64,000 nt of DNA from Roseomonas aeriglobus. Lineage in GTDB: Bacteria > Pseudomonadota > Alphaproteobacteria > Sphingomonadales > Sphingomonadaceae. The position numbers and the translations under genes are program-made. Location of the stretch: assembly GCA_016937575.1 (NCBI GenBank), contig JAFHKN010000002.1, positions 2,932,001 to 2,996,000 of the forward strand, read 5' to 3'. The notes under the pieces are model-generated. The model saw only the letters and a program-made list of their open reading frames with translations, was not told the origin of the DNA and searched no databases. Of the stretch, positions 7,207 through 51,881 are shown piece by piece (position 1 is the stretch's first letter; every line of letters begins with the position of its first letter).

Positions 7207-8166
7207 CTAGGAAGTCGCAGCCCGCTTGGGAAGGCGCCCGGCGAGCAGATCGCGTACCATCGCCGGCCCGTCCATGCCGCCTTCCCGCATCGCCGCCAGC
7301 GTCGGCGCGCCGGTGCGCTTGGCAAGCCGCTCGCCGGTCGCATCGGTCAGCAGCGGATGATGATGATAGCGCGGCGTCGGCAGGTCGAGCAGCGCCTGGA
7401 GCAGGCGGTGGACATGCGTACTGTCGAACAGATCGACCCCGCGTACGATATCGGTGACGCCTTGCGCGGCGTCATCGACAGTGACCGCAAGGTGATAGCT
7501 GGCCGGCGCATCCTTGCGGGCAAGGACGACGTCGCCATGGGCGGCAGGTTCAGCGCGGACCCAACCGGCCGTCGCGTCGTGCCAAGCAAGATCCTCCCCA
7601 GAATGGGGAGGGGGACCGCCGCCGAAGGCGGTGGTGGCGGGGGCGGGCCGCACAGGGCTACCTTCGCGGAGCCCCCCCTTCACCATCTTGCGCATGGTTC
7701 CCCTCCCCGTGCCGGGGAGGATTTGCCGGGCTTTCGCCACATCCAGCCGCCAGCAATGCGGGACCGCCGGGTCGACGTCGCGCCCCCGGCACGTCCCCGG
7801 ATAGATCGCGCCCGAGGTCCCATGCGGCGCGGACAAACTCGCGGCGATATCCGCGCGCGTGCACACGCAGCGGTAGAGCAGGCCCATCCCCCGCAACCGA
7901 TCGAGCGCCGCATCATACATGTCCAGCCGCGCCGACTGCCGCACCACCGGCCCGTCCCAGTGGAGCCCGAGCCACGTCAGATCCTCGATAATTCCTGCGA
8001 CATGCTCCTCGCGACTGCGGGTGCCGTCGATATCCTCGATCCGCAGCAGGAACTGCCCACCCCGCTCGCGCGCGAATCGGTGAGCCAGTGCCGCCGAATA
8101 GGCGTGCCCAAGGTGCAGCCGCCCGGTCGGGCTGGGGGCGAAGCGGGTGACGACAGGGGCGGGCAT
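7207..8166 (-). CDS. gluQ: Glutamyl-Q tRNA(Asp) synthetase with in-frame palindromic insert
   Basis: 319 residues. GluQRS charges glutamate onto the queuosine base at position 34 of tRNA-Asp. The class I signature appears as RFAPSPTGRLHLGHAYSA (HLGH), the four-residue zinc site as CVC...YPGTC, and DVVLARKDAPASYHLAVTVDD follows. Between DVAKARQ and LAWHDA about 44 residues (149-192, rich in Gly and Pro) have no counterpart in the family as I know it; they are coded exactly by a 132-bp palindromic element (7591-7722). Without it the protein would be about 275 residues, near the usual size. The ATG at 8166 gives the canonical N-terminus; the frame is open further upstream without support. Confidence 0.92.
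   Translation of the reverse strand: MPAPVVTRFAPSPTGRLHLGHAYSAALAHRFARERGGQFLLRIEDIDGTRSREEHVAGIIEDLTWLGLHWDGPVVRQSARLDMYDAALDRLRGMGLLYRCVCTRADIAASLSAPHGTSGAIYPGTCRGRDVDPAVPHCWRLDVAKARQILPGTGRGTMRKMVKGGLREGSPVRPAPATTAFGGGPPPHSGEDLAWHDATAGWVRAEPAAHGDVVLARKDAPASYHLAVTVDDAAQGVTDIVRGVDLFDSTHVHRLLQALLDLPTPRYHHHPLLTDATGERLAKRTGAPTLAAMREGGMDGPAMVRDLLAGRLPKRAATS
7591..7722. repeat. Family A palindromic element, copy 1, in frame inside gluQ
   Basis: 132 bp (44 codons). Ends are mutually inverted (ATCCTCCCC / GGGGAGGAT) and each end forms its own hairpin (CTCCCC-AGAAT-GGGGAG and CCTCCCCG-TGC-CGGGGAGG). An inner hairpin ACCGCC-GCCGAA-GGCGGT follows the left end. The first 17 bases (TCCTCCCCAGAATGGGG) and the last 18 (CCCCGTGCCGGGGAGGAT) recur in the imuB copy 39 kb away. 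The gluQ frame runs through without a stop. Confidence 0.85.
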
Positions 8167-8229
8167 CGCGCACAGATGGCAAGCGCACCTCAGCTTGTCG
8201 ATGCGAGGCCGCCCGATTACTCTGGCGCA

Positions 8230-9243
8230 ATGACACGCATTCCCGCCCTGCTCGCGATTTCGCTCAGCGTCCTGCCGGCGACCGCGCCGGCACAAGTCGC
8301 CCCCAAGCCGGGGGCAATGAAGACTTTCGGCGACTGGACGGTGGGCTGCGACAACGCCAATCGCTGTATGATGCTGTCGCTGGCGCCCGAGGACGGCGAC
8401 GCGCCGCCGACGACTTTGCTCGTGGCGCGCGACGCCGGCAGAGATGCCGGGTTTCGTGTGACCGTCGAGCCCGAGGACGGCCGCCCGCGCGGACTGGGGG
8501 TCGACGACAAGCCGCTGGTGGCGGGCAAGGTCGATTACGACGGCCCGCCCGCAAGCGCGATTGTGACCGCGATGGCGAACGGCCGGACGCTCCAGATCCG
8601 CAACGCAGCCGGCAAGTCCGAATCGCTACTCAGTCTGCGGGGCGCATCGGCGGCACTGCGCTACATCGACTCGCAGCAGGGGCGCGCCGGGACCGTCACC
8701 GCCGCGGTCGCCAAGGGGAGCGCTCCTGCCGCACGCGTGCCCTCCGCCCCGGCGCTACCGGTCGTGACGGCGATCACCCCGGCGGGGGTGGCAGCCAGGC
8801 CGACCGCGGCGCAGGTCGCAACGATGCGCAAGGTCGCGGAATGCGATCTCGAGGGCTTCGCCGGCGACAGCGCACCCGAGCTGCATGCCCTGGGTGGCGG
8901 CGCGACGCTGGTGCTCGTTCCTTGCTCGGCCGGCGCATACAACATCACTTCGGCGGCGTTCGTTCTCAGGGGCGGCAAGGTCGCCCCGGCGCGGGCGGAT
9001 GTGCCGACCGGCTTCGGTGAGGATGGTTTGACCGCTGGCCCGGCGATGCTGGTCAACGCCGGCTTCGGCGACGGTGTGCTCAGCAGCTATGCCAAGGGGC
9101 GCGGGATCGGCGACTGTGGTGTCTCGCAGAACTTCGTATGGGACGGAATGCGCCTGCGCCTGACCGAACAGGCCGAGATGAGCGAATGTCGCGGCAACAC
9201 CGGGCTGGCGACGACATGGCGCGCGACGGTACGGCGGAAATAG
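8230..9243 (+). CDS. Exported DUF1176 domain protein
   Basis: 337 residues from the ATG at 8230. The first 21 residues (TRIPALLAISLSVLPATAPAQ) are a signal peptide with an A-P-A-Q type end. The body starts with TFGDWTVGCDNANRCMML, resembling the Gram-negative DUF1176 / invasion-associated-locus-B fold with its paired cysteines, and the second half has further cysteines (AECDLEGF, VPCSAGAYN, GDCGVSQ, SECRGNTG) that probably form disulfides in the periplasm. The frame is open far upstream to 6910 only as antisense shadow of other genes. Divergent from gluQ with 63 bases between. Function unknown. Confidence 0.8.
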   Translation: MTRIPALLAISLSVLPATAPAQVAPKPGAMKTFGDWTVGCDNANRCMMLSLAPEDGDAPPTTLLVARDAGRDAGFRVTVEPEDGRPRGLGVDDKPLVAGKVDYDGPPASAIVTAMANGRTLQIRNAAGKSESLLSLRGASAALRYIDSQQGRAGTVTAAVAKGSAPAARVPSAPALPVVTAITPAGVAARPTAAQVATMRKVAECDLEGFAGDSAPELHALGGGATLVLVPCSAGAYNITSAAFVLRGGKVAPARADVPTGFGEDGLTAGPAMLVNAGFGDGVLSSYAKGRGIGDCGVSQNFVWDGMRLRLTEQAEMSECRGNTGLATTWRATVRRK

Positions 9244-9352
9244 CTGACGCCGCGGCTGTCTGTCGTCCGGCGTCGACGTCGGCTATCGCTGTTTCACTTC
9301 CCCCCGGACTCGCCCCCTCGGCCGCCACGATGCTCCGCAGCGCACGCGGGTC

Positions 9353-10783
9353 TTACAATTCGGTGCCCAGGATGTGCGGACGTTCGTCGGCCAGCTTCAC
9401 GATCAGTTCGCCGAACAGGCCGTTCGCCCAGGCGAACCAGGCGCGCGTGAATTTGGCGGGATCGTCCTGATCGACGGCTTCATGCACGAAGCCTGTGCCG
9501 CCGTCGCTGTCGCGAAGCCATTTCAGGCACTGGCGCACAGTGGTGTCGTCAATGGCCGAGAGGGCCCGGATGGTCAGCGACATCGGCCAGACCTGCCCCG
9601 GTCCGACATGCGGGCCGCCAATGCCCTCCACCGCCTTGCCACGGAAGAACCAGGGGTTGGCGTCGCTCCACGCCGCAGCTTCGGTACGACGCCACAATGG
9701 ATCTTCGGGTTTCACGCAGCCAAGATAGCCAAGCCCTGACAGCGACGGCACGTTCGCATCGTCCATGAAGATCGCGTTGCCGAAGCCGTCGACTTCATAG
9801 GCCCATACTTCGCGCCCGTCGCGCAGGCGCATCTTGCCATATTGCTGGATCGCTGTTTCGACCTCGTCGGACAGCGCCTTCGCCTCCATCGCCAGCTTCA
9901 TGTCGCCCGCCGCCTCTGCCGCGACCACCGCCAGCTCGCGCAGGGTGATAACGGCGAACATGTTGGCCGGGATCAGGAACGGGTAGAGGCAGGCATCGTC
10001 GGAAGGGCGGAAGCCCGAATGAATGAGGCCAACCGGCTTGGTCGGATTACCATAGCCCCACAGCAACGACTCGGTCGGCTGGTTGGCGGCGCGGCGGAAT
10101 GTGTACGGGCCGGGTCCGGTCTTGCGCTGCTGTTCGCGAAAGGTCTGGACGATCAACCGCGCCGACCTTGCCCACGTCACGTCGAAGGGCCGCGGATCGC
10201 GCATTTCCCGCCAGTAGAGATACGCCAGCCGCAGCGCATAGCACAGCGAATCGATCTCCCACTTCCGCTCGGCGACGCCGGGCCGCATCTCGGTCTCATC
10301 CTTCAGCGCCCAGCTGAGATTGGTCTTCGCCGCCGGGTCTTCCATGAAGGCATTGGCATAAGGATCGATCAGGATCGAGCGCGCGTGGCGGGCTATGAGT
10401 CCGCGGAACAGTTCGTCGAGCTTCGGATCCTTCTTGATCAGGTGCAGATAGGGCTTCACCTGCGCCGCACTGTCGCGCAGCCACAGGCAGGGGATATCGC
10501 CGGTAATCACGAAGCTGTCCGGTCGCCCGCCGATTGTCGACATCTTAACCGTGGTATCGAGCGTGTTGGGATACGCATTCTCGAACATCCACGCGAGTTT
10601 CGGGTCGGCGATCTTCGCCTTAACCCGCGCGATCTCGCGCTCGATCGCCTTGCTGACGAACTTGCGTTCGCCGAGCGGGGGGCGTCTGGTCGGGATCGCC
10701 GGCGGGGCGTCATCCTTCGCATGAGCAGGCAGGGCAGCCATGGCCGCAGTGGCTCCGACGAAGGCTCGACGCGTGATGGTCAT
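9353..10783 (-). CDS. Exported GH125 exo-alpha-1,6-mannosidase
   Basis: 476 residues. The N-terminus TITRRAFVGATAAMAALPAHA is a Tat-type signal (twin Arg, hydrophobic stretch, A-H-A cut). The body matches glycoside hydrolase family 125 (formerly DUF1237), metal-independent alpha-mannosidases: DIPCLWLRDSAAQVKPYL, NAFMEDPAAKTNLSW, ERKWEIDSLCYALRLAY, HSGFRPSDDACLYPFLIPANMFA, FMDDANVPSLSGLGYL and GTGFVHEAVDQDDPAKFTRAWF hold the acidic active-site residues. It likely trims terminal alpha-1,6-mannose from imported or surface glycans in the periplasm. The ATG at 10783 begins the signal; 17 further codons upstream are open but unlikely. Confidence 0.9.
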   Translation of the reverse strand: MTITRRAFVGATAAMAALPAHAKDDAPPAIPTRRPPLGERKFVSKAIEREIARVKAKIADPKLAWMFENAYPNTLDTTVKMSTIGGRPDSFVITGDIPCLWLRDSAAQVKPYLHLIKKDPKLDELFRGLIARHARSILIDPYANAFMEDPAAKTNLSWALKDETEMRPGVAERKWEIDSLCYALRLAYLYWREMRDPRPFDVTWARSARLIVQTFREQQRKTGPGPYTFRRAANQPTESLLWGYGNPTKPVGLIHSGFRPSDDACLYPFLIPANMFAVITLRELAVVAAEAAGDMKLAMEAKALSDEVETAIQQYGKMRLRDGREVWAYEVDGFGNAIFMDDANVPSLSGLGYLGCVKPEDPLWRRTEAAAWSDANPWFFRGKAVEGIGGPHVGPGQVWPMSLTIRALSAIDDTTVRQCLKWLRDSDGGTGFVHEAVDQDDPAKFTRAWFAWANGLFGELIVKLADERPHILGTEL

Positions 10784-10965
10784 TCCGGCAATCCCGTGAT
10801 TCGCCCGGCCAAGCTCGTCTCGGCCCGGGTCCACGCCGACCTATCGGGCCGGCCGCCGCCGATCCAGATGCGATACGGGCCGGTCGTGGCGGTCTGGATG
10901 GCTCCCGAGGTCCGCCCCCTGCCGGTTCCCAGGGCCCGAAACGACGCCGTGGGGCAGGACGATGC
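10784..10965. other. Intergenic stretch between two minus-strand genes, no gene seen
   Basis: 182 bases separate the Crp/Fnr gene end from the mannosidase start. Very GC-rich, with GGGCCGGCCGCC-type self-complementary words but no clear hairpin with a T run and no convincing small frame with a ribosome site. It must hold the mannosidase promoter, which I cannot place. Confidence 0.4.
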
Positions 10966-11751: not shown

Positions 11752-11919
11752 AGGCAGGACCGCCGGATCATCTGCACTTCGATGGCGTCGAGCGAAGAGC
11801 CAGCGTACTCCACCATGTTCCCGGTCGCGCCGGCGTTGGTTCTGGATCGAAAGCGGCAGTTCTCCATGACAGGCGCAACGTGCAAACCGATGCTATGATC
11901 CCGATCAAAAGCGCCGGTT

Positions 11920-15117: not shown

Positions 15118-15216
15118 ACCGAACGAAGCTGTGCCTCGGCACAGGCAGAGCCGTGACGGCCAGTGCTGCGCCCGCGCCTGCGCCGGAGCACATGACGTGA
15201 TGGTGCGTCGGCGGGC

Positions 15217-16840: not shown

Positions 16841-16970
16841 CGTGTCGTCCTCTAGAAATTCGGGTCGCCGCGCAGCGCTTGTCCCGCGGCCTTCCCGCGC
16901 ATATTGAGGCGATCGGGCGCGGTTGCAACGCCTCTGCCCCAGTATGTAATGTCCTCCGCCGGAGACCCGA

Positions 16971-37207: not shown

Positions 37208-37215
37208 GATCGGGA

Positions 37216-41033: not shown

Positions 41034-44000
41034 TCAATGGAAATCGCGGGATTTGATGGGAATCGCGTCTTCCGGATCGCAGCCGTTGTTGAACGCCTTG
41101 TGATAGTCGGAGCGCACGCGCGGTTGCCAGCCGGGATCGCCGCGGTCGGGGGCCCCGCCATGGGTCGCGCCGTCGCCGCGTGTCGTCAGCCGCGGAAGAT
41201 CGACGTCGCCGACCTCGCGCAGCATCCAGCTGTAATCGACGATGCGATCGACGATGACGTGGATGACCAGCCCCTCCTTCTGCACGCGTCCCTGCACACC
41301 GATCATCGTCGCCGACATGACCGTGCGGCGCTGCGCCTCGAACCGGTCGGGCCACAGGATGGCGTTGGCAACGCCTGTTTCGTCCTCGATGGTGATGAAC
41401 AGCACGCCCTTGGCGCTGCCGGGCTTCTGGCGGACCAGGATGACCCCAGCGACCTCGACCTTGCGCCCGTCCTTGATCCCCGCCAGTGCCGCGGCGGGCA
41501 CGATACCGGCACGTTCCAGCCGTGGGCGCAGGAACGACAGCGGGTGGGCGCGCAGCGACAGCTGGGTCGAGCGATAATCCTCGACGACCTCGCGCCCCGC
41601 GGTCAGCGGCGTGAGCGCGACGGCAGGCTCGCGCACCTCCATCGCGTCTAGGAGCGGAAGCGATTTCTCGCCCAGCGCCTTCACCGCCCAGAGCGCCTGA
41701 CGGCGATCGTGGCCGAAACAGCGGAAGGCATCGGCCCGGGCGAGCCGTTCGAGCGCAGCGGGCTTGACCCGCGATCGGCGGAAGACGTCGGGAATCGAAG
41801 TGAACGGCCCACCGGCCGCCCGCGCGGCGAGGATGGCGTGGGCATCGGCCTGGGCGAGGCCCGCGACCATGTTCATACCCAGGCGGATGGGGCGCAGGTC
41901 TGCCCAGTCGGCCTCCGAGCCGGCGAAACGAGCGAGTCTTGGCCCTCTCCCCTTCAGGGGAGCGTCAGGTGAACCGCGCCCCGCGCGGTTCAGATCAGGC
42001 TGGGGGCCTGATCCACCTGACGCTGGTCGGGAGAGGGGGCGGTGTCTCACCGGGACCTGAGCCTGCTGCACTGCCCGTCTCCCAACCCTCTCCCTGCAAG
42101 CGGGGAGAGGGCTTAGAAGCCGCGTATCCCAATCGCTGTCGTTCACGCACACCGGCTCGACGACCACGCCATGCTCGCGCGCATCGCGCACGATCTGTGC
42201 CGGCGCGTAGAAGCCCATCGGCTGCGCGTTCAGCAGCGCTGCGCAGAACACGTCCGGGTGATGGCATTTCATCCAGCACGAAGCATAGGCGATCTTGGCG
42301 AAGGACGCGGCGTGGCTTTCGGGAAAACCATAGCTGCCAAAACCCTCGATCTGCTTGACCAGGCGTTCTGCGAAATCGAGCGAGATGCCGTTCTTGAGCA
42401 TGCCGGCGATGAGTTCATCATGGAAATGACTGACTCCACCGGTGAATTTGAACGTCGCCATCGCCTTGCGCAGGCTATCCGCCTTGCTGGGTGAAAAGCC
42501 CGCGCCAACGATCGCAACCTTCATCGCCTGTTCCTGGAACAGCGGCACGCCCATGGTCTTTTCCAGCACCTCACGCAAAGCGGTATTCGGATATTCGATC
42601 GCCTCCTTGCCCTCGCGCCGCCGCAGATAGGGATGCACCATGTCGCCCTGGATCGGCCCCGGCCGGACGATCGCGACCTCGATCACCAGATCGTAGAATT
42701 CCTTAGGCTTCATCCGCGGCAACATCGACATCTGCGCGCGGCTTTCGATCTGGAAGACTCCTAGCGTGTCGGCCTGCTGGATCATCGCGAACGTGTCGGG
42801 ACAATCGACCTGCATTTCGTCCGACGCCATGGTCAGGCGGAGTCCCTTATGCTCGGCAAGCAATTCGAACGCCCGGCGCATACACCCGAGCATGCCGAGG
42901 CCGAGGATATCGACCTTCATCAGCTTCAACTCTTCGATATCGGCCTTTTCCCATTCGACGACGTGACGATCCGCCATCGCTGCGGGCTCGATCGGCACCA
43001 GCGTGTCGAGGCGATCCCGCGTCAGGACGAAGCCGCCGGGATGTTGCGAGAGGTGCCGCGGCGTCCCGATCAATTCCCGGGCGAGTTCGAGCGTGAGGGC
43101 AAGGCGCGGGTCGGTCTTGTCGAGGTTGAGTTGATCGACGTGCTGGTCACGCACCCCCTCCTCCGACCAGCCCCAGACCTGGCCGGCCAGCGCAGCAGTC
43201 ATATCCTCGGACAGGCCCATGACCTTGCCGACCTCGCGCACCGCGCCGCGCGCACGGAAGCGGCTGACGACCGCGGTCAGCGCCGCGTGATCGCGACCAT
43301 AGGTGTCGTAGATCCACTGGATCACGTCCTCGCGCCGCTCATGTTCGAAATCGACGTCGATATCGGGCGGTTCATGACGGTCTTCGGAAATGAAGCGTTC
43401 GAACAACAGCTTGTGCTGGACGGGGTCGATCGACGTCACACCCAGCACGAAACAGATCATCGAATTCGCCGCCGACCCACGCCCCTGGCACAGGATATTC
43501 TGGCTGCGCGCATAATCGACGATCGCGACGACGGTCAGGAAATAGGGCGCGTATCGCATCTTTTCGACGAGCCGCAGTTCATGGCTGAGCAGCTTGCGAT
43601 ATTTCTCGGTCGGGCAGCCGCCGTACCGCTTGTTCAGGGCGCGCCAGGCGAGCTTTTCCAATGCCTTTTGCGGGCTGTGCGCCGACATCACCCGTTCGTC
43701 GGGATATTGATATTCCAGGCTGCGCAGGTCGAACCGACAGCGTTCGACGATCCGTTCGACCGCGTGCAGCGCGTCGGGATAATCGGCGAAGCGGCGCGCC
43801 ATCTCGGCTGGTGGCTTCAGGTGCCGGTCGACGCTGCGTTCGCGGGCCAGGCCCAGGTCATCGATCGTACAACCGTTACGGATCGCGGTGACGACATCCT
43901 GCAGCATCCGTCGATCGGGATGATGATAGAGCACATCTCCCGTCGCAAGCGGGATCAGGCCATGCGCACGGGCTGCCTCCGCCGTGGAGCGCAGGCGCAA

Positions 44001-44507
44001 GGCATCGCCCGGCCGGCGAAGATGGGTCAGGCAGACATGGCCGCGGTCGGGGCCGAACACATCGGCCATCCAGGCGAGCGCGCGGGGCACGGGATCGGCA
44101 TCGGCGACCAGGGCACCGATCAGTCCGTCGCAATGCGCAGCCACATCTTCCCAATGGAGAAAGCACTGCCCCTTTTCGCCCTTCTGCGGGTCGGCGCGCA
44201 GCTTGCCGCGGGTCAGCAGTGTCGTCAGCCGGCTCCATGCCGCCTTGTCCTCCGGCCAGACGAGCAGCGAACTGCCGCAGACCAGGTCGAGCCGGCAGCC
44301 GGGGATCGACCGCACGCGAATGCCATGCTTCTTTTCGACCTCATCGCTCGCGTAGAGCGCCCGCACCACGCCCGCGACCGAATTGCGGTCGACGATGCCC
44401 AGCGCCGGCATGCCCATCACCGCAGCCTGGGCGAACAGTTGCTCACACGACGACGCGCCGCGCAGGAAGCTGAAGTGGGTGGTGACCTGGAGTTCGCTGT
44501 AGGTCAT
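41034..44507 (-). CDS. dnaE2: Error-prone DNA polymerase DnaE2 (ImuC) with in-frame palindromic insert
   Basis: 1157 residues. PHP domain at the N-terminus (TYSELQVTTHFSFLRGASS), C-family polymerase palm with GRGSAANSMICF and PPDIDVDFEHERREDVIQ (catalytic Asp pair), tail with OB-fold (VEVAGVILVRQKPGSAKGV) and final PRVRSDYHKAFNNG. Lesion-bypass polymerase of the ImuABC mutasome. Residues about 799-855 (SPLPACRERVG to APLKGRG) correspond exactly to a 171-bp palindromic element (41942-42112) placed between NDSDWDTRL and RLARFAGSEADW; without it the length is about 1100, normal for the family. The insert falls in a linker before the C-terminal region. Confidence 0.95.
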   Translation of the reverse strand: MTYSELQVTTHFSFLRGASSCEQLFAQAAVMGMPALGIVDRNSVAGVVRALYASDEVEKKHGIRVRSIPGCRLDLVCGSSLLVWPEDKAAWSRLTTLLTRGKLRADPQKGEKGQCFLHWEDVAAHCDGLIGALVADADPVPRALAWMADVFGPDRGHVCLTHLRRPGDALRLRSTAEAARAHGLIPLATGDVLYHHPDRRMLQDVVTAIRNGCTIDDLGLARERSVDRHLKPPAEMARRFADYPDALHAVERIVERCRFDLRSLEYQYPDERVMSAHSPQKALEKLAWRALNKRYGGCPTEKYRKLLSHELRLVEKMRYAPYFLTVVAIVDYARSQNILCQGRGSAANSMICFVLGVTSIDPVQHKLLFERFISEDRHEPPDIDVDFEHERREDVIQWIYDTYGRDHAALTAVVSRFRARGAVREVGKVMGLSEDMTAALAGQVWGWSEEGVRDQHVDQLNLDKTDPRLALTLELARELIGTPRHLSQHPGGFVLTRDRLDTLVPIEPAAMADRHVVEWEKADIEELKLMKVDILGLGMLGCMRRAFELLAEHKGLRLTMASDEMQVDCPDTFAMIQQADTLGVFQIESRAQMSMLPRMKPKEFYDLVIEVAIVRPGPIQGDMVHPYLRRREGKEAIEYPNTALREVLEKTMGVPLFQEQAMKVAIVGAGFSPSKADSLRKAMATFKFTGGVSHFHDELIAGMLKNGISLDFAERLVKQIEGFGSYGFPESHAASFAKIAYASCWMKCHHPDVFCAALLNAQPMGFYAPAQIVRDAREHGVVVEPVCVNDSDWDTRLLSPLPACRERVGRRAVQQAQVPVRHRPLSRPASGGSGPQPDLNRAGRGSPDAPLKGRGPRLARFAGSEADWADLRPIRLGMNMVAGLAQADAHAILAARAAGGPFTSIPDVFRRSRVKPAALERLARADAFRCFGHDRRQALWAVKALGEKSLPLLDAMEVREPAVALTPLTAGREVVEDYRSTQLSLRAHPLSFLRPRLERAGIVPAAALAGIKDGRKVEVAGVILVRQKPGSAKGVLFITIEDETGVANAILWPDRFEAQRRTVMSATMIGVQGRVQKEGLVIHVIVDRIVDYSWMLREVGDVDLPRLTTRGDGATHGGAPDRGDPGWQPRVRSDYHKAFNNGCDPEDAIPIKSRDFH
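41942..42112. repeat. Family A-like palindromic element, copy 6, in frame inside dnaE2
   Basis: 171 bp (57 codons) with inverted ends GCCCTCTCC / GGAGAGGGC. Each end is itself a hairpin (CTCCCC-TTC-AGGGGAG and CTCTCC-CTGCAAGC-GGGGAG). Inner arms GCGTCAGGTG and CACCTGACGC (about 41961-41970 and 42018-42029) are complementary. The outer word differs from copies 1 and 2 (CCCTCTCC instead of TCCTCCCC), so this is a subfamily. Open in the dnaE2 frame. Confidence 0.8.
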
Positions 44508-44537
44508 TGGCCGGCACGCCCGACATGACTATATGAC

Positions 44538-44545
44538 ATGTACAT
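44538..44545. promoter_or_regulatory. ATGTACAT palindrome between dnaE2 and the antitoxin gene
   Basis: Perfect 8-base palindrome in the 54-base gap that must contain the toxin-antitoxin promoter, next to ATATGACATG (44531-44540). Phd/YefM-type antitoxins bind short palindromes in their own promoter, so this is a plausible operator. Not proven by a second copy. Confidence 0.4.
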
Positions 44546-44561
44546 TTCGGGAAGGTCGGTC

Positions 44562-44804
44562 ATGAACAAGATCGTCAGCGCCAGCGAGTTCAAGGCCAAG
44601 TGCCTGCGCCTGATCGAGGAAATGCAGGCCGACGGGGTGCCGATCACCATCACCAAGCGGGGCAAGGTGGTGGCGGAAGTGACGCCGAAGGCGGAGGCAC
44701 CGCGCAAATCGGTGATCGGCATGCTACGCAGCCCCGACTATCGATCGGACTGGGACCATGAGGCGCCCACAAGCGACCCGGACGATTGGGACGCGCTGCG
44801 GTGA
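44562..44804 (+). CDS. Phd/YefM-type antitoxin
   Basis: 80 residues from ATG 44562 with GGAAGG six bases upstream. The N-terminus NKIVSASEFKAKCLRLIEEM and PITITKRGKVVAEVTP are the Phd/YefM DNA-binding fold. The acidic C-terminus (DHEAPTSDPDDWDAL) is the disordered toxin-binding tail. It shares the GTGA overlap with the toxin gene. The pair is oriented opposite to the flanking imuB and dnaE2. Confidence 0.92.
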   Translation: MNKIVSASEFKAKCLRLIEEMQADGVPITITKRGKVVAEVTPKAEAPRKSVIGMLRSPDYRSDWDHEAPTSDPDDWDALR

Positions 44805-45211
44805 TCGTCCTCGACACCCATGCGCTGATTTGGGTGGTTCGTGACGATCGAAATCTTGGCCAAAACGCTCGCGCGATTATCGACAACGCCACCCGCACGA
44901 CGGGTCTGATCGTTCCAGCATTCTGTGCCTGGGAAATCGCACAGATTGAAAGACGTCAAAATCTGACATTTGAAGGCGGTGTTGTGGCCTGGTTTGAACG
45001 CATTCTTGCCGAACCCGGCTTTCGCCTGAGCCCACTCGTTCCCAAAATTGCCGTCGGCAGTGTGATGCTTGATTGGAAGCACAAGGATCCTGCGGATCGC
45101 ATCATGGTCGCAACGGCGCAGTATCATGACATGGCATTGCTGACCGCCGATCGGACCATCCTGCGCTATGCCGCCGACGGGCATGTGAAGGCGATCGACG
45201 CCCGTCGTTAA
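44801..45211 (+). CDS. VapC-type PIN domain toxin
   Basis: 136 residues from the GTG at 44801. PIN acidic residues: VLDTHALIW (Asp), CAWEIAQIE (Glu), DPADRIMVATA (Asp) and LLTADRTIL (Asp), the four-acid RNase site. VapC toxins cleave tRNA or rRNA. Translationally coupled to the antitoxin. Its stop is eight bases before the imuB stop on the other strand, so the module fills the whole interval between imuB and dnaE2. Confidence 0.92.
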   Translation: MIVLDTHALIWVVRDDRNLGQNARAIIDNATRTTGLIVPAFCAWEIAQIERRQNLTFEGGVVAWFERILAEPGFRLSPLVPKIAVGSVMLDWKHKDPADRIMVATAQYHDMALLTADRTILRYAADGHVKAIDARR

Positions 45212-45219
45212 CGCCCGCA

Positions 45220-47364
45220 TCACCCGAACCACCCGTGCAGGAACCAGTTGAGGTCCCCTGTTTCCGCGCGCTCGCCGTCGCCGCGGCGGTAGAGCCAGAA
45301 GCGCGTGCCGGCGTCGTCCTCGACACAGAAATAGTCGCGGATGGCGGTGCGTTCGGCCGCACGGCGCCACCATTCGCCGGCGATGCGTTCGGGGCCGTCG
45401 GAGCGTGCGACCGTCACGGTGCGGCCGCGCCAGACGAAGCGGCGGGGCGCGCCGTCGGGCATTACCGACAGGACGTTGTCGATCCGCTCCGGCCGGGCAA
45501 GCAGGCGCACCGGGCGCGGCCAGCGAGGGTGCCAGGGCGGGACGACCGTACGGGTATCGAGCGTGCGGACGTCATCGGGCTTCAGCCTGGGCGCGGCACG
45601 GGTCGGCGGGTCGAGCGGCGGGGCCGGCGCCGCGCTGCGTTCGGGGACGTCGCTTTCGACCGGACGCACTCGCCACAGCCGACGACCCAGAGTCGCCAGC
45701 GTGTCGACCAATGGGGCCAGGTCGGGTTCGGCCTCCCCGGCCAGTTCGGCGCTAAGCGCCTCGGCTCCTAGTCGATCGGCAGCCCGCAGGTACAGGGTCA
45801 GCGCATCGATGCCGTAACCGGGTTCGACGTCGCCGATTCGGCGGACGAGCAGACGCAGGATGTGGCCCCCGTCCCGGCTCGGGCGGGCGAGACCGATACG
45901 GATGTGCTGCGGCACCGCATCGATGCGGTCGGCGATCACCTCGATCCGCCGCGCGCCCAGACCTGCAGTTGCGAGCTCGGCCGTCAGGCGGGGCACGAGC
46001 GTACCCAGCCAATGTTCGATCGCCTCGGCGGTGGCGATCGGTTCGGCGAAGCGCTGGGTGATGGCGATCGGTTCGGGCGGGACGACGGGCGTCAGCGGAT
46101 CGGGCAACCGTCCGAGAGCCTGGTCGAGCCGGGTGACGGTGCCCGGACCGAACCGACGCGCGAGCGGTCCGCGCGCGACATCCGCCAGCATCCCGATCGT
46201 GTCGATGCCCAGGCGGCGCAGCAGTTCGATCTGCGGCTCCGCCAGGGCCAGCGCGGCGACCGGCAGCGGGGCGAGCGCGGCGGCATCGTCGTGCGAATGG
46301 ACGATCCGCGCCGGGCCATAACGGGCGAGCGCATGCGCGGCGGTCGCGGAATGGGCGACAGCGATGCGCGCGGTGAATCCGCGGCGCGCGAGTTGGCGAA
46401 CGATGCGCCGGGCCATCGCGGCCTCGCCACCATGTAGATGTTCGGTACCGGTAATGTCGATCAACAGACCCGCCCTGCCGTCGATCGCGACCGTCGGCGA
46501 CACGCGGCGGGCAAGCATGATCGCCAGCGCGGCGAGATCGGCGGCGTCGCCCTCAGGGTCGTAATCGCGAACGTCCAGCCCGGGGGTCTGGGCGCGCGCC
46601 TGGGTCAGCGCCATGCCGCGGGTAATGCCGAGCGCGCGGGCGTGCGTGCAGGCGGCGGCGATCTCCACACGCGGACCGGTCTTGTGGACGAGAACGAGGG
46701 GAGCGCTTTGGTCCTCCCCAGAATGGGGGGGTGCATCAGCCGAAGGCTGGTGGAGGGGGGCTTCCGCAAGCGACCCGTTTGCGGCCTGCCCCCTCCACCG
46801 CTCTACGAGCGGTCCCCTTCCCCGTGCCGGGGAGGATCGGGCGCCTTCGTCGGGACGCATCGCCTTGAACGGGTGCGGGGCGGCTTCGCTGCGGCGGCCG
46901 AGCTCGCGCATCGGGGGCTGCTGATGTGCGGGGAGCGTCGCGAGAGCCGCTTGTACTTCCGCACGCGCCCAACGCGCGCCGGGTCGCCAACCGCCGCCGC
47001 GGGGGACGGAGCAGGCGTTGAGTTGTTCGGCCGCGACCTGGGTAGCGAGGGATTGCACGGTGCCGGTCAACCCGCCGTGCTCCCGCGTAGGCGGGAGCAT
47101 AGAGCCACGAGCGATGGGTTCGCCGCCCTGGGCTCCGGCCTTCGCCGGAGCACGCGAGGGTACGGGGGCACGCGAGAGACTCTCGCCTGCTCCGCCGCAA
47201 GCCAAGCTTGCGTCGTCGGACGCGCTTTGCGCACCGGCCGGGTCGGACGCTGCGCGGCCGTCGGCGCGCATCGGCGCTGTCGCGCCTGCGTCACGCGGCT
47301 GCCGCTTCGCGGCGAGCCGCTCGACCGACCACTCCGGCAGGTACAGCGCAGCGACCCGTTTCAT
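45220..47364 (-). CDS. imuB: ImuB, catalytically divergent Y-family polymerase of the mutasome, with two palindromic inserts
   Basis: 714 residues, long for ImuB (commonly 500-560). It begins MKRVAALYLPEWSVERL with GGAGG upstream of ATG 47364. The core has PLVLVHKTGPRVEIAAAC, ARALGITRGMALTQARA, GLLIDITGTEHLHGGEAAMARRI and the clamp-binding/ImuB C-terminal features; the acidic pair of active Y polymerases is not intact, as expected for ImuB. Residues 71-96 (around SRAPAKAGAQGG) and 177-218 (around SSPARGRGPLVERW) are coded by palindromic elements of two families, in frame. ImuB links ImuA, DnaE2 and the clamp. Overlaps imuA by 74 bases. Confidence 0.92.
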   Translation of the reverse strand: MKRVAALYLPEWSVERLAAKRQPRDAGATAPMRADGRAASDPAGAQSASDDASLACGGAGESLSRAPVPSRAPAKAGAQGGEPIARGSMLPPTREHGGLTGTVQSLATQVAAEQLNACSVPRGGGWRPGARWARAEVQAALATLPAHQQPPMRELGRRSEAAPHPFKAMRPDEGARSSPARGRGPLVERWRGQAANGSLAEAPLHQPSADAPPHSGEDQSAPLVLVHKTGPRVEIAAACTHARALGITRGMALTQARAQTPGLDVRDYDPEGDAADLAALAIMLARRVSPTVAIDGRAGLLIDITGTEHLHGGEAAMARRIVRQLARRGFTARIAVAHSATAAHALARYGPARIVHSHDDAAALAPLPVAALALAEPQIELLRRLGIDTIGMLADVARGPLARRFGPGTVTRLDQALGRLPDPLTPVVPPEPIAITQRFAEPIATAEAIEHWLGTLVPRLTAELATAGLGARRIEVIADRIDAVPQHIRIGLARPSRDGGHILRLLVRRIGDVEPGYGIDALTLYLRAADRLGAEALSAELAGEAEPDLAPLVDTLATLGRRLWRVRPVESDVPERSAAPAPPLDPPTRAAPRLKPDDVRTLDTRTVVPPWHPRWPRPVRLLARPERIDNVLSVMPDGAPRRFVWRGRTVTVARSDGPERIAGEWWRRAAERTAIRDYFCVEDDAGTRFWLYRRGDGERAETGDLNWFLHGWFG
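46712..46836. repeat. Family A palindromic element, copy 2, in frame inside imuB
   Basis: About 125 bases; ends TCCTCCCCAGAATGGGG and CCCCGTGCCGGGGAGGA are the same words as in the gluQ copy, while the middle differs (CATCAGCCGAAGGCTGGTGG; CCTCCACCGCTCTACGAGCGG). Different middles with the same ends suggest independent or ancient insertions. Codes about residues 177-218 of ImuB. Confidence 0.85.
47077..47153. repeat. Family B palindromic element, copy 2, inside imuB
   Basis: 77 bases with inverted ends GTGCTCC / GGAGCAC. Hairpins GCTCCCGC-GTAG-GCGGGAGC (47079-47098) and CTCCGGC-CTTC-GCCGGAG stand at either end. The frame of imuB passes through without a stop, coding residues about 71-96. Confidence 0.78.
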
Positions 47365-48028
47365 CGCAAGCCTCCAATTCCCAGGCGCCCGGGGCGCCAC
47401 CCTTTTGTCGAACCAGTTCCACCCGCCAGCGTGATCGCCCCACCCCCGCGACGGGCAGCGGGGTGGAGGGCGCGGTGGCGATCCGCCAGCGGGTGACCGC
47501 AGCGGAAGGGGCGGCCAGCGGGTCGTCGTCGGTGGAGACATGGCGTTTGAGCAGCAATGCGATCGTCCGCCCGCCCTCCGCCGCCAGTTGCAGCCGACGC
47601 GTCGCGGCAAGCCCTGCGCGTTTCGCCTCGCCGATCACGGCGCCAAGCGAACGGTGCCGCAAGCCTTCTTCCATGATCGCCAGCAGGTCGGCGTCATCCT
47701 GTGCCTCGGCATAGATTACGCGGTGGGCGGCCAGCCCCGCCTGCGCCAGGCCCGGCGCGAACAGGTCGCGGCGCCGGACCACCCACAAGACCGGGCCCCA
47801 GGCGCGCGCGGCGATGCCCGCCATGAACAGGGTCGCGGCGGCATCGTCGCCCATGCTGGCCGAAGCACCGGCGACTTCGTGGAGCGCATCGAGCCGCAAG
47901 CCGGTCGAAGCGAGCGTGCCGTCGATCGCGCCGATTCCGAACGGCAAAGCCTCCCGCCGGCGGAAGGATCCGCTCTCGATCCCTCGCAATTCCTCGCGAA
48001 GGTGGGCTATGACGGCGGGGTTGGACAC
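47291..48028 (-). CDS. imuA: ImuA, RecA-like mutasome subunit
   Basis: 245 residues from a GTG at 48028 (SNPAVIAHLREELRGIE). The SulA/RecA-like core shows FGIGAIDGTLASTGLRLDALHEVAG, WVVRRRDLFAPGLAQAGL, VIGEAKRAGLAATRRLQLAAEGG and the C-terminal strand WRVELVRQKGGAPGAWELE. ImuA binds ImuB and RecA to organise translesion synthesis. A LexA box lies 28 bases upstream. The open frame extends to 48289 through a palindromic repeat and is rejected as start. First gene of the imuA-imuB-dnaE2-dinB line. Confidence 0.9.
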   Translation of the reverse strand: MSNPAVIAHLREELRGIESGSFRRREALPFGIGAIDGTLASTGLRLDALHEVAGASASMGDDAAATLFMAGIAARAWGPVLWVVRRRDLFAPGLAQAGLAAHRVIYAEAQDDADLLAIMEEGLRHRSLGAVIGEAKRAGLAATRRLQLAAEGGRTIALLLKRHVSTDDDPLAAPSAAVTRWRIATAPSTPLPVAGVGRSRWRVELVRQKGGAPGAWELEACDETGRCAVPAGVVGRAARREAAAA

Positions 48029-48056
48029 GCGGGGCACGACTCGCAAAACAACAGAT

Positions 48057-48071
48057 GTTCTTATTCTGTTC
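48057..48071 (-). promoter_or_regulatory. LexA (SOS) box of the imuA operon
   Basis: Exact alphaproteobacterial LexA site GTTC-N7-GTTC (GTTCTTATTCTGTTC on the plus strand). It lies 28 bases before the imuA start, where it would block the promoter until RecA-driven LexA cleavage. No second copy was seen before dnaE2 or dinB. Confidence 0.88.
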
Positions 48072-48105
48072 CGTTTGCTCGCCGAGTCAACCGGCTGTTT
48101 TCTCT

Positions 48106-48257
48106 GAATTCCTCCCGAGCTTGTCTCGGGGAGGGGGACCGCAGGCCGCAGGCCGGTGGTGGAGGGGCTGGCGGCGTCCGGCGCGTGCCGCGCCGCCCCT
48201 CCACCACCCGGCTCCGCCGGGCGGTCCCCCTCCCCCAGCAAGCTGGGGGCGGAATTC
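48106..48257. repeat. Family A-like palindromic element, copy 3, intergenic
   Basis: 152 bases bounded by GAATTC on both sides. Order: CCTCCCGAGC-TTGTCTCGGGGAGG hairpin, GGGGGACCGC...GGCCGGTGGTGGAGGGG, an inner GC block, CCCCTCCACCACCCGGC with GCCGGGCGGTCCCCC as complement of the left side, and CCCCCAGC-AAGCTGGGGG at the right. The two halves are broadly complementary, so the whole can fold as one long hairpin. Confidence 0.8.
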
Positions 48258-48349
48258 GTGAGCCGCACGCCTCCTGCCACGAACCGCACTCGACCTGCGA
48301 TCTCAACGCGTTAATCTTCGCGCCATCCTGACATCGCCATAGGCCGCCC

Positions 48350-50476
48350 ATGACCTTACGCTTGACGCTCGCGCTCCTCGCCACGACTTCCCCGGTCATG
48401 GCCACCGCTCAAACCGCCGCCCCCGTCGCCACCCCGACCGCGGATGCCGCCATCCTGCTGCAGCCCTGGGGCGGCCCGAACGGCGGAGTGCCGCCATGGG
48501 ACAAGGTGACGCCGGCGATGTTCCCGGCCGCCTATGATACGGCGATGGCCGAGTATCGCCGCCAGATTCATGCGATCCGCGACAATCGCGCCGTGCCGAC
48601 GTTCCAGACCGTCATCGTGCCGCTGCAGCTGGCCGGCGACACGATCAGCCGGGTCGGGGCGATGTGGGGGGTCTATACCTCCAACCTCGCCACCAAGGAG
48701 GTTCAGGACATCGACCGGGTGCTGAGCCCGAAGCTCGCCGCCTTCTACGACGAACTGACGCTCGACCCGCTGCTTTTTGCCAAGATCAAGGCCGTGTACG
48801 ATGGCCGCAAGGCCGCCAAGCTCGACGCGCAGCAGATGCGCCTGGTCGAGCGGACGTACCGCAGCTACGTCCGACGCGGTGCGATGCTGTCGCCGGAGCA
48901 GCGCGCGCAGGTGACGCAGCTGAACCAGCAGCTCGCCACCGCCTTCACCGACTTCGGCAGCAAGCTGCTGGCGGACGAGGAAAAATGGATCGTCATCGAC
49001 AGCGAGGCGCAGCTCGACGGCGTGCCTGACAGCGTGAAGGCGGCGATGGCCGCGGCCGCGACGTCGCGCAATCTGCCGGGCAAATGGGTGGTGGTGAACA
49101 CGCGGTCCTCCGCCCAGCCGGTGCTGACCTATGCCAGGGACCGGGCGCTGCGCGAGAAGGTGTTCAAGGCCTTCGTCAACCGCGGCGACAATGGTGACGC
49201 CAACGACACCAAGGCGACGATCGCGCAGATCCTGAAGCTGCGCCAGGACCGTGCCAAGCTGCTCGGTTTCAAGAACCACGCCTATTTCCGCATGGACGAC
49301 ACCATGGCCGAGACCCCGGCCAATGCGATGGCGCTGATGATGCGCGTCTGGCCCGCCGCAGTCGCCCGCGTGAAGGAAGAAGTCGCCGACATGCAGAAGG
49401 TGGCGGACGCCGAGAAGGCCGGCATCACCATCCAGCCGTGGGACTATCGCTATTACGCCGAGAAGGTGCGCAAAGCGAAGTACGATTTGGATGAGAGCGA
49501 GATCAAACCGTATCTCGAGCTCGGCAACATCCTGCAGGGCGCCTTCTACGCCGCCGGTCGCCTGTACGACCTGGGGTTCAAGGAAAACACCGGGCAGATC
49601 CCGGTCTTCGATCCCGACGTCCGCACCTTCGAAGTGACGAACACCAAGACCGGCCGCTTCATCGGATACTTCTACTTCGATGCCTATGCCCGACCGGGAA
49701 AGCGGTCGGGCGCATGGGCGACGACGTATCGCAGCCAGCAGAAGCTGGGCGGCGACCGCACGGTGCTCAGTTCGAACAACAATAATTTCGTGAAGGGGGC
49801 GCCGGGCCAGCCGACGCTGATCAGCCTGGACGATGCGACCACCGCCTTCCACGAATTCGGCCACGCGATCCATTCGCTGTTGCAGAACGTGACCTACCCA
49901 GGCCTCGCCGGAACGCCGCGCGACTTCGTCGAATATCCCAGCCAGGTGAACGAGAACTGGCTGCTGACCCGCGACGTGCTCGATCGGTACGCGAGGAACG
50001 CCGCCGGCCAGCCGATGCCGCAGGCGCTGGTCGACAAGATCGAAAAGTCGTCGACGTTCAACCAGGGCTTCGACACGGTCGAATATCTGTCGAGCGCGAT
50101 CGTCGACATGAAGCTGCATGACCGCGACACGCCGGTGACCGACGTCGCCGCGTTCGAGCGCGAGACGCTCGCCGAGCTCGGCATGCCCAAGGAAATGGTG
50201 ATGCGGCACCGTCTGCCGCAGTTCAATCACCTGTTCTCGTCGGATGCCTATTCGGCCGGCTATTACAGCTATCTCTGGTCGGAAACGATGGACGCCGACA
50301 CCTGGGCGGCGTTCGAGCAGGCCGGGGTCTGGGACCGCGCGACGGCCGATCGATTCCGCACGACGCTGCTGTCGACCGGCAACGAAACCGACCGCAAGGA
50401 GGCGTACCGCCAGTTCCGCGGGCGCGACCCGGACGTCAACGCGCTGTTCAAGCGGCGGGGGTTCCCGACCAAGTAA
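48350..50476 (+). CDS. M3 family metallopeptidase (peptidyl-dipeptidase Dcp type), exported
   Basis: 708 residues with signal peptide (TLRLTLALLATTSPVMATAQ). The zinc site FHEFGHAIHSLLQ (HExxH) is near residue 505, with the downstream EYPSQVNENWL supplying the third ligand. DDxTTAFHEFGHAIH and the AYSAGYYSYLWSETMDADTW tail are typical of M3A Dcp/oligopeptidase A. It trims dipeptides from peptides in the periplasm. Preceded by the family A element, followed by another. Confidence 0.94.
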   Translation: MTLRLTLALLATTSPVMATAQTAAPVATPTADAAILLQPWGGPNGGVPPWDKVTPAMFPAAYDTAMAEYRRQIHAIRDNRAVPTFQTVIVPLQLAGDTISRVGAMWGVYTSNLATKEVQDIDRVLSPKLAAFYDELTLDPLLFAKIKAVYDGRKAAKLDAQQMRLVERTYRSYVRRGAMLSPEQRAQVTQLNQQLATAFTDFGSKLLADEEKWIVIDSEAQLDGVPDSVKAAMAAAATSRNLPGKWVVVNTRSSAQPVLTYARDRALREKVFKAFVNRGDNGDANDTKATIAQILKLRQDRAKLLGFKNHAYFRMDDTMAETPANAMALMMRVWPAAVARVKEEVADMQKVADAEKAGITIQPWDYRYYAEKVRKAKYDLDESEIKPYLELGNILQGAFYAAGRLYDLGFKENTGQIPVFDPDVRTFEVTNTKTGRFIGYFYFDAYARPGKRSGAWATTYRSQQKLGGDRTVLSSNNNNFVKGAPGQPTLISLDDATTAFHEFGHAIHSLLQNVTYPGLAGTPRDFVEYPSQVNENWLLTRDVLDRYARNAAGQPMPQALVDKIEKSSTFNQGFDTVEYLSSAIVDMKLHDRDTPVTDVAAFERETLAELGMPKEMVMRHRLPQFNHLFSSDAYSAGYYSYLWSETMDADTWAAFEQAGVWDRATADRFRTTLLSTGNETDRKEAYRQFRGRDPDVNALFKRRGFPTK

Positions 50477-50492
50477 GGCTTTCGAGCCATCA

Positions 50493-50618
50493 AATCCTCC
50501 CCTGCAAGGGGAGGGGGACCGCCGCCTAAGGCGGTGGTGGAGGGGTGTTCCGCTATCGAAACGGTGACATCCCTCCGTCAGGCCTGCGGCCTGCCACCTC
50601 CCCTTACAGGAGAGGATT
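50493..50618. repeat. Family A palindromic element, copy 4, intergenic
   Basis: 126 bases between the M3 peptidase stop (50476) and the lacI-type gene end. Ends AATCCTC / GAGGATT; left hairpin CTCCCC-TGCA-AGGGGAG, then ACCGCC-GCCTAA-GGCGGT and GGTGGAGGGG as in copies 1-3; right part GGCCTGCGGCC and CCTCCCCTTACAGGAGAGG. It may also serve as terminator region for the convergent genes. Confidence 0.8.
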
Positions 50619-50648
50619 GCTCGTCGGTCACAATCGCTCCCCTATGGC

Positions 50649-51713
50649 TCACGCCGCGCCATCCGACCCGCGCCGGATCAGCGTGAAGGGCAGGGTGCGA
50701 TGTTCGGGCACCGCATCCACCCGCCCCACCCGCCGATCGCGGATCAGAGCGACCAGCAGGTCGATCGCCGTGCGGGCCATCTCGGCGATCGGCTGGCGGA
50801 TCGTCGTCAACTCGGGCCAGATCTCGGTCGCGAGCGCGGTGTCATCGAAACCGACGACGCTCAGGTCCCGCGGCACGTCCAGCCCCAGCCGATGCGCCAC
50901 CGCGACGCAGGCCGCAGCCATGTCGTCGTTGCAGGCGAAAATCGCGCTGGGACGCTCCGGACGAGTCAGCAGTCGCTCGGCCGCAAGCGCGCCAGAGCGG
51001 TAGGTAAACAGGCCCGGCATGACCAGTGCGTCGTCCAGCGTGATATCGGCCGCCGCCAGGGCCTCGCGATAACCGGCAAATCGTCGTGCGCTTGCGGTCT
51101 GGTCAGGATTGCCGGCGATGAAGCCAATGCGGCGATGTCCCTGTGCGACCAGATGCGCGGCCATTGCGCGCGCCGCGGCCTGATCGTCGATCCCGACCGC
51201 CGCCATGGCGGCCAGCGGCGCACCCGATGCGACCGCGACCGCCGGCAGCGCGGCATCGGCGATCAGGGCCTGCACGTCGATATTGTCGCACAAGGGCGCG
51301 GGCAGGATGACGCCGTCGACCCCGGCGCGCGCCAGCCGCGACGCTGCCTGCGCGATGTCTTCGGCATCGGCGCACGGCACTACGAGCAGCTGGGCGTTGA
51401 TCGCCGTCGCATGCTCCAGCCCGCCGAGCAGGAAAGCGCTGAGATAGGCGGCGCTCGGGTTGGCATAGAGCAGGCCCAGGCGAAGGTCCCCCGCACTTGC
51501 CAGCGATCGCGCCGCGAGGTTGGGGGCATAGTCCAGTGCCGCGATAGCGGCTGCGACCCGCTCGCGCGTCTCGGCACGGACATTGGCCATGCCGTTGACG
51601 ACGCGCGATACCGTCATCGGCGACACGCCGGCATGGCGCGCGACGTCGTCGACGGTAGCCCCGCCGCGGCGGCGACGGGGGGATTTCAGCGGAACGTCGG
51701 TGTCGGATGGCAC
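50649..51713 (-). CDS. LacI family transcriptional regulator
   Basis: 354 residues from a GTG at 51713. The HTH TVDDVARHAGVSPMTVSRVVNG with the hinge VRAETRERVAAAIAALDYAPNLAARSLAS is exact for LacI; the periplasmic-binding-like core includes LGLLYANPSAAYLSAFLLGGLEHA, GHRRIGFIAGNPDQTASARRFAGYREAL and VPRDLSVVGFDDTALATEIWPELTTIRQP. The sugar effector and targets are unknown; no sugar genes are adjacent. Longer upstream frame (to 51962) runs through a palindromic repeat and is rejected. Confidence 0.9.
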   Translation of the reverse strand: MPSDTDVPLKSPRRRRGGATVDDVARHAGVSPMTVSRVVNGMANVRAETRERVAAAIAALDYAPNLAARSLASAGDLRLGLLYANPSAAYLSAFLLGGLEHATAINAQLLVVPCADAEDIAQAASRLARAGVDGVILPAPLCDNIDVQALIADAALPAVAVASGAPLAAMAAVGIDDQAAARAMAAHLVAQGHRRIGFIAGNPDQTASARRFAGYREALAAADITLDDALVMPGLFTYRSGALAAERLLTRPERPSAIFACNDDMAAACVAVAHRLGLDVPRDLSVVGFDDTALATEIWPELTTIRQPIAEMARTAIDLLVALIRDRRVGRVDAVPEHRTLPFTLIRRGSDGAA

Positions 51714-51764
51714 GCCCGATATCGTGCGGCGAAGCGGTGACGGGTGCAAGCGGGAAGGCACATG

Positions 51765-51881
51765 TCCTCCCCTGCCAGGGGAAGCGGCGGGCCGCAGGCC
51801 TGACGGGGGGGTGTCACACCATCCGGATCGGGTGACACCCCCGACGCGCTTCGTGCCGCCCCCTCCCCTGCGAGGGGGGAG
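51765..51881. repeat. Family A palindromic element, copy 5, intergenic
   Basis: About 117 bases between the lacI-type start and the SDR end. Left TCCTCCCC-TGCC-AGGGGAA, right CCCCTCCCC-TGC-GAGGGGGGAG; between them GGGTGTCAC-ACCATCCGGATCG-GGTGACACCC, a long inner stem unlike the other copies. Ends agree with copy 4. Confidence 0.75.

Follow-up and report, generated by a model that had tools for sequence, protein, structure and literature searches.

Palindromic repeats lying in frame within protein-coding genes are known mostly from Rickettsia, with scattered cases among repetitive extragenic palindromic (REP) sequences elsewhere; REP doublets forming hairpins (REPINs) are mobilised by REP-associated tyrosine transposases (RAYTs). 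In the portions of the cited sources available to us, Rickettsia palindromic elements (RPEs) are described as palindromes of ∼105–150 bp that belong to several families and occur both in frame within conserved protein genes and between genes (PMC10969869, PMC2229807), with R. conorii truB carrying RPE-1 (PMC3733652). The same portions describe CGTC and GTAG REPs as high-copy palindromes near gene 3′ ends, mostly between convergent or unidirectional genes, with intragenic copies in dnaE2, tRNA synthetase genes and truB (for the latter two, in S. alaskensis as well); CGTC REPs are without a transposase, and different REPs occupy about the same recB site in two Xanthomonas species (PMC3733652). 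In-frame fusions of miniature inverted-repeat transposable elements (MITEs) are also known (PMC10969869, PMC2229807), and the available portion of PMC12306157 mentions neither sphingomonads nor in-frame insertion. In-frame palindromes in proteins are thus already established from RPEs and from GTAG and CGTC REPs. Here we follow up an initial annotation of a 64 000 nt stretch of Roseomonas aeriglobus DNA (assembly GCA_016937575.1, contig JAFHKN010000002.1, positions 2 932 001–2 996 000; hereafter the window), in which palindromic elements had been noted both between genes and within gluQ, imuB and dnaE2. We conclude that these are probably REP-like, non-autonomous elements that survive in tolerant, disordered protein loops, where the occupant turns over fast. 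We did not find described in the literature either the architecture of the principal family, termed family A, or a long-occupied, family-switching site such as that in gluQ. Searches of the literature, which did not cover supplementary files, returned nothing on GluQ with palindromes or on in-frame palindromic elements of Sphingomonas; four full hairpin strings were absent among the matches listed in a search by repeat letters, and the works found on palindromes at a shared site concerned eukaryotes only.

Family A elements begin and end with ATCCTCCCC...GGGGAGGAT, are mostly 117–148 bp in length, and are high-copy and REP-like. Their terminal hairpin, CCTCCCC-(3 to 8)-GGGGAGG, occurs 135 times in exact form in the 4.28 Mb genome of the strain, compared with once for a reversed-pattern control, so that the elements are not a product of chance; the matches are often paired as doublets, ∼97–126 bp apart. 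In 29 aligned doublets the arm consists of ATCCTCCCC, a loop and GGGGAGG, a linker (GGGACC or TGGC), an inner hairpin, and GGTGGAGGGG or GACGGAGGGG, followed by a centre and the inverted arm. The stem of the inner hairpin varies among copies, its self-complementarity being mostly kept, and both linker types are combined within single copies, making the elements mosaic. DNA folding of the window copies produced an outer stem enclosing the inner hairpins. Direct repeats of 3–9 bp at the borders of 45 copies were no commoner than with shuffled partners. The copies had on average 3.95 of six frames open, compared with 3.35 in dinucleotide shuffles, and openness is thus mainly a matter of composition; strong selection for stop-free frames was rejected, and any such selection, which the initial annotation had raised as a possibility, is weak at best. 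The lengths of 58 full-length copies from the genome, among them those in gluQ, imuB and the methylmalonyl-CoA mutase gene, left remainders of 0, 1 and 2 on division by three in 13, 22 and 23 cases, respectively, so that multiples of three are not favoured among copies in general. Two arrangements were seen besides the simple doublet: four family A copies in tandem with a similar spacer between them (locus L056, 2450–3141), and a third related palindrome type, CCCCTCCCCTTCAGGGGAGGGGTTGGGG..., present as a 93 bp doublet (locus L057, 2475–2567).

Within the window, a 132 bp family A element (7591–7722; nhmmer score 65 bits; fold z −4.05) lies in frame within gluQ, which is encoded on the minus strand (ORF 7207–8295, called gene 7207–8166) and whose best match to the GluQRS hidden Markov model is split into two stretches around the insert. 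GluQ was detected in 287 of 295 genomes of the genus (E 1e-35), and in 40 of these, that of the strain included, the alignment runs unbroken through a stop-free insert (39 of the 40 were parsed and the insert of G076 was seen separately). The site is empty in relatives: in a comparison in which 19 of 23 loci were parsed, three of them filled, the WRLD and W-D motifs were separated by exactly 16 residues in all 16 empty orthologues, compared with 56 in the protein of the strain. Two further genomes, G079 and G311, also carry long inserts, and in G262 (locus L314) an insert is present with the conserved parts before and after it in different frames, denoting either a broken gene or a sequencing error. 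In total, therefore, 43 of the 287 gluQ genes are filled, a lower bound, as most of the other genomes were not inspected base by base, and 42 of the 43 are in frame, although the parse seeks open frames, so that frame-shifted genes escape it unless followed up as for G262. Set against the 13 of 58 genomic copies whose length is a multiple of three, this does not contradict the earlier proposal of in-frame insertion.

The parsed gluQ inserts comprise 14 of family A, nine of a type termed A-long (with stems such as CCTCCCCGAGC), eight of a sister family, B (nine with G076), six CGTC-like, three of type D (CCTCCCCTCCC) and one other, all labels having been set by eye from the letters; a first set of labels was used for the fold test and the comparison of flank neighbours, and a revised set for the tree and footprint below. 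Families A, A-long and B are all high-copy in the genomes of the genus. For 40 of 41 inserts the predicted fold is much stronger than that of mononucleotide shuffles (z −3.5 to −16; gene flanks −2.6 to 2.2), that of G126 being no better than its shuffles (z 0.4). Among database proteins close to the GluQ of the strain, 112 of 120 could be parsed, and these revealed more kinds of occupant as well as short remnants, 20 being under 40 residues. Short remnants resembling deletion scars were also seen in G160 and in G193, the sister of the insert-bearing G011. In an AlphaFold model of GluQRS (53 sequences; mean predicted local distance difference test (pLDDT) 81.6) the insert falls in a low-confidence loop at about residues 150–192, between a helix and a strand, and in a weaker model of TruB (pLDDT 65.5) it falls in a loop between two strands; both loops are thus predicted to be disordered, in keeping with the initial suggestion that the inserts are short enough to form a loop.

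In order to follow occupancy through the genus, we used a tree of the GluQ flanks with 65 rows, the supports of which are rough and the bootstrap unsettled; it omits G076 (B-type, anchor not found) and the unparsed G017. One clade of 27 species (support 99/93, rough) holds 24 filled sites, one scar and two empty sites. The type labels require 24 changes on this tree, compared with 38 when shuffled (18 compared with 34 when A and A-long are merged), whilst filled or scarred as opposed to empty requires six, compared with 18.5; types therefore cluster, yet they change far more often than occupancy. The gluQ site, then, often stays occupied while the family of its occupant changes. The closest pair by flank, G281 (A-long) and G270 (B), share 0.898 nucleotide identity and carry different families, and the nearest flank neighbour had an insert of the same type in 18 of 39 cases (first labels). 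With the insert of G130 as query, the orthologous gluQ copy ranked, among the matches listed, second (tied) in G184, fourth in G210, fifth in G176 and sixth in G064; 40 first-look candidates were scored per genome, and among the matches listed there was no gluQ copy from G258 (A-long) or from G097 (B). As the orthologous copy was never the best match, the occupant looks much as if drawn from the repeat pool of its genome; the test did not show pure vertical descent, and similarity between inserts does not simply track that of the genes. The share of A among a genome's hairpins has a median of 0.59 in 21 genomes with A or A-long in gluQ and 0.29 in nine with B (p 0.002), a comparison that covers 30 of the 40 genomes and takes no account of kinship.

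The second gene filled in many species is truB, in which the alignment passes through the insert without a break in 82 of 146 genomes and the loop measures 61–72 residues in 29 filled genes, compared with 27–34 in 18 empty ones. The loop lengths derive from 50 loci, 30 picked as filled (29 parsed) and 20 picked as broken alignments, of which 18 proved empty and one (G005) filled; G250 and G036 were unparsed. The truB of the strain also carries a family copy, and a second truB on its contig C6 has an insert together with one in-frame TGA. The window dnaE2 (minus strand, 41034–44507) carries a B element in frame at 41943–42111, CCCTCTCCC...GGGAGAGGG, with the hairpin of these ends at 42086–42111 and a nested palindrome at 41961–42024 (fold z −5.79, for 41943–42085 only). 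In most same-genus copies of dnaE2, and in the paralogue on contig C5 of the strain, the aligned pieces end at about residues 797–814 and resume at about 853–873, with a gap of at most 99 nt, compared with ∼210 nt in the window; the dnaE2 genes of G021 and G002 give an unbroken alignment and may have a comparable segment. Contig C5 also holds a further imuB, and neither it nor the dnaE2 copy on that contig has an insert. In the window, imuB (minus strand, ORF 45220–47610, likely start near 47364) contains a family A element at 46711–46838 (nhmmer score 63 bits; fold z −5.32), between conserved N-terminal blocks and the IMS domain. Here the C5 paralogue and several copies at ∼50 % identity match both flanking blocks, no more than 40 nt apart, but closer parsable orthologues carry 204–972 nt of other sequence at this point. 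The family A profile found no match in any other imuB locus examined, and the element is therefore an insertion, albeit into an already hypervariable stretch. An RPE-like, in-frame insertion into a conserved gene with empty orthologues is accordingly seen in gluQ, truB and dnaE2, and is less clean in imuB, for which only more distant copies are empty; that these segments form a real family inserted in frame, rather than sequence common to orthologues everywhere, is borne out by the insert-free gluQ and dnaE2 genes of relatives and by the C5 paralogues. The adjoining part of imuB, from the N-terminal block to the IMS domain (46840–47300), spans 57–972 nt in parsable relatives and contains peptides, such as HPGEGRDL, with the look of REP-encoded ones, so that it looks like another parking site.

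To relate the copies to genes, we surveyed 385 kb of the genome, comprising 50 stretches surrounding the 100 hairpins listed first together with the window, and retained copies of at least 20 bits; the sample is biased, as the stretches were chosen by exact hairpins. Genes were called with a custom caller that took its codon usage from 21 long window ORFs, and the counts inside and outside genes depend on it. Of 65 copies, 55 lay between called genes, seven overlapped a gene edge and three were inside genes, namely gluQ and the methylmalonyl-CoA mutase gene (both called) and imuB (by eye); the imuB insert was missed by the caller and so counted as intergenic for distance and orientation. The median distance was 7 bp to neighbouring 3′ ends and 47 bp to 5′ ends, and convergent neighbours outnumbered divergent ones by 17 to 3 (p 0.003), compared with 51 to 51 for all neighbouring gene pairs in the sample. 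At 80 named loci, 67 of 91 copies were between genes, 16 overlapped a gene edge and eight were inside seven genes (ligA, dihydrolipoamide acyltransferase, truB twice, a ligase-associated DEXH helicase, an Smr-domain protein and murD), with median distances of 6 bp for 3′ ends and 56 bp for 5′ ends and a convergent to divergent ratio of 24 to 5 (p 0.0005). Edge-overlapping copies (7 of 65 and 16 of 91) were counted neither in nor out; one lies almost wholly within the called start of murB (L056, 8974–9104).

These properties place family A close to several known systems. It is high-copy, self-complementary and mostly extragenic, as REP-like repeats in the broad sense are, and it shares with REPs a location near gene 3′ ends and a rarity between divergent genes. 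However, a CGTC REP is a stem-loop of 20–40 bp with CGTC at one end and a stem starting with A/T pairs, whereas family A has two different hairpins per arm and no edge tag, the string CGTC being found only inside one arm type; nor was GTAG, the mark of RAYT-type REPs, found at the hairpin foot in the 29 aligned copies. Elements that are CGTC-like by their letters do occupy the same gluQ site in six genomes. Like a REPIN, in which two inverted REP-like units form a doublet (PMC3116915, available portion), family A is a doublet, but no cognate RAYT gene flanked by the repeat was found with the Y1_Tnp model, the only one used. In being short and non-autonomous with terminal inverted repeats it resembles a MITE; it differs in that the 45 copies gave no signal of target site duplication, and the partner transposons looked for were Y1 only. 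Compared with RPEs, by description and not by sequence, family A belongs to another host, has GC-rich double-hairpin arms and has only a small minority of its copies within genes, and a change of family at one site is not described for RPEs in the available portions of the sources.

The terminal hairpin is present in 42 of 61 genomes, including 35 of 36 same-genus relatives with 3 to 256 hairpins each, the remaining one having none. A stricter pattern, ATCCTCCCC...GGGGAGGGGGACC, matched, among those listed, Sphingomonas, Sphingobium, Novosphingobium, Sphingopyxis, Erythrobacter, Porphyrobacter, Blastomonas, Caulobacter and Brevundimonas, and the initial view that this lineage has a palindrome family of its own does not hold. 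Y1 transposase genes (Y1_Tnp model) were found in 11 of 61 genomes and in four of 37 of the genus, the strain included. The three genomes richest in hairpins, G025, G016 and G024, have no Y1 gene, and the strain (G000, 135 hairpins) and G010 (131 hairpins) have one each, with no family member beside that of the strain. A RAYT-driven REPIN was rejected on these grounds, Y1 genes being rare in the genus and that of the strain not flanked by the repeat.

As to how the gluQ occupant changes, the edges of the inserts are informative. Family A inserts start 30 nt after the WRLD codon start in 13 of 14 cases and, in all 14, end 7 nt short of the W codon; for A-long the start is at 30–31 nt in eight of nine and for B at 29–33 nt in eight of eight, both mostly sharing the A edges, and CGTC-like and D inserts start at 35–57 nt. 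Shared edges point to exchange in place or to a shared target preference, and the different edges of the CGTC-like and D inserts indicate that new insertion also occurs. It is quite conceivable that a single tolerant loop has received independent insertions repeatedly and lost them by deletion, with no exchange at all. Such a history would account for the inserts with edges of their own and for the scar-like remnants in G193 and G160, and palindromes are indeed seen to join or nest, both in the window dnaE2 and in the truB of G005 (L425), where a CGTC-like palindrome adjoins half an A-long element. It would nevertheless require about the same net target loss of 12 nt to have happened many times for A, A-long and B. 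We more tentatively consider cassette exchange, in which an ancestral gluQ insertion was followed by the swapping of A, A-long and B through recombination or template switching at their shared G-rich ends. The common edges of these three families and the existence of mosaic elements with arms of two subfamilies are in line with this, as is the copy of the strain, which is closer to the inverted copies found in G299, G176 and G210 than to direct ones, so that orientation differs too. Yet between their edges A and B have little sequence in common, the distinct CGTC-like and D edges require insertion in any case, and the strain's copy scores as well against intergenic copies (best 83) as against an inverted orthologue (81.5, best of nine). 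That GluQRS-type loops are lasting sites, with the resident palindrome replaced in situ by one from another family, is hence possible but doubtful; were it so, some 40 residues of a conserved enzyme would evolve with the intergenic repeats of the genome and not with their own gene.

It is rather unlikely that the insert has been domesticated as a useful part of the protein or mRNA that keeps the site filled. The 24 filled sites among 27 species of one clade would fit, as would the retention of folding through changes on both sides of a stem: in six gluQ inserts from a single family, chosen because their lengths are almost the same, such paired changes affected five of 30 pairs, a value reached in two of 500 shuffles, and 97.2 % of cells were paired, compared with 92.5 %. 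This pattern is compatible with in-place compensation, with conversion or with replacement by another copy; the encoded peptide is wholly different between families, empty and filled gluQ coexist in the genus, one filled gene is frame-shifted, and both GluQRS and TruB are dispensable in Escherichia coli. An origin of the segments as ancient parts of the proteins, passed down vertically, is very improbable and was rejected: some sister species do share a family, as in the clade formed by the three D-type species, but relatives and the strain's own paralogues have empty sites, different families occupy one site, and insert similarity does not simply follow descent.

We therefore return to REP-like elements surviving in tolerant loops as the probable explanation. 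The elements would be non-autonomous palindromes of the alphaproteobacterial orders Sphingomonadales and Caulobacterales, with two inverted arms, each an outer CCTCCCC..GGGGAGG hairpin, a linker, a variable inner hairpin and a purine-rich segment pairing with the other arm, one strand of which can fold, as the predictions indicate, into an outer stem with inner hairpins. Copies appear to spread with neither Y1 transposase association nor target duplication detected. Most are observed to survive near gene 3′ ends, where they probably act as, or adjoin, terminator or 3′-end hairpins, and in-gene copies may be kept mainly if in frame, as seen, and in a loop predicted to be disordered and variable in length, presumably through selection. 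A few loops, those of GluQRS and TruB above all, are filled in many species, and the frequent changes of family at gluQ would arise by new insertion after deletion or by in-place exchange. Several observations weigh against this reading. In-gene copies are rare (3 of 65 and 8 of 91, the latter in seven genes), and not every filled gluQ looks intact, that of G262 being frame-shifted at the insert and that of G026 having an open frame of only 183 codons, with its letters unread. Some descent also remains, as types cluster more than shuffled labels and gluQ copies rank high; further pair types were not raised in the six gluQ copies (166 of 500 shuffles as high); and, with 24 of 27 sites filled in one clade, the insert could be beneficial and not merely tolerated. 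Fixed sites of this kind can be followed through hundreds of species in empty, filled, switched, scarred and broken states, so that the entry and change of repeats in conserved proteins becomes testable by strain comparison.

With respect to the window as a whole, what the initial annotation observed was partly confirmed and its interpretation partly supported. It had listed six A or A-like elements of 117–171 bp, those in gluQ, imuB and dnaE2 in frame and the rest intergenic; we recovered six, of 117 to ∼169 bp, three within ORFs and three intergenic, the sixth, in dnaE2, being the sister-family element. An nhmmer search with the profile built from the 29 doublets gave five matches (7591–7722, 46712–46837, 48110–48240, 50494–50617 and 51765–51877), and five of the six elements fold better than all of 200 shuffles (z −4.1 to −7.4). 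The intergenic elements are a long-stem copy upstream of a peptidase M3 gene (48110–48256, its match extended by eye from 48240; 22 bits; fold z −7.44), a copy with mosaic arms 18 bp past the peptidase M3 stop (50494–50618; 84 bits; fold z −6.92) and a degenerate copy between lacI-type and short-chain dehydrogenase genes (51765–51881; 43 bits), the folding of which is weak (z −2.14; five of 200 shuffles equally good). Two elements of what it called family B, of 77 and 89 bp, had also been reported, of which one corresponds to a hairpin pair within imuB (47078–47151; GCTCCCGCGTAGGCGGGAGC and GCTCCGGCGAAGGCCGGAGC) and the other could not be identified. The two members of this pair have zero and two mismatches to one pattern, with 0.17 matches expected by chance, and the first has a 9 bp stem. 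Lastly, between dnaE2 and imuB (44561–45211) lie two small plus-strand genes that by eye are antitoxin-like and PIN-domain toxin-like.

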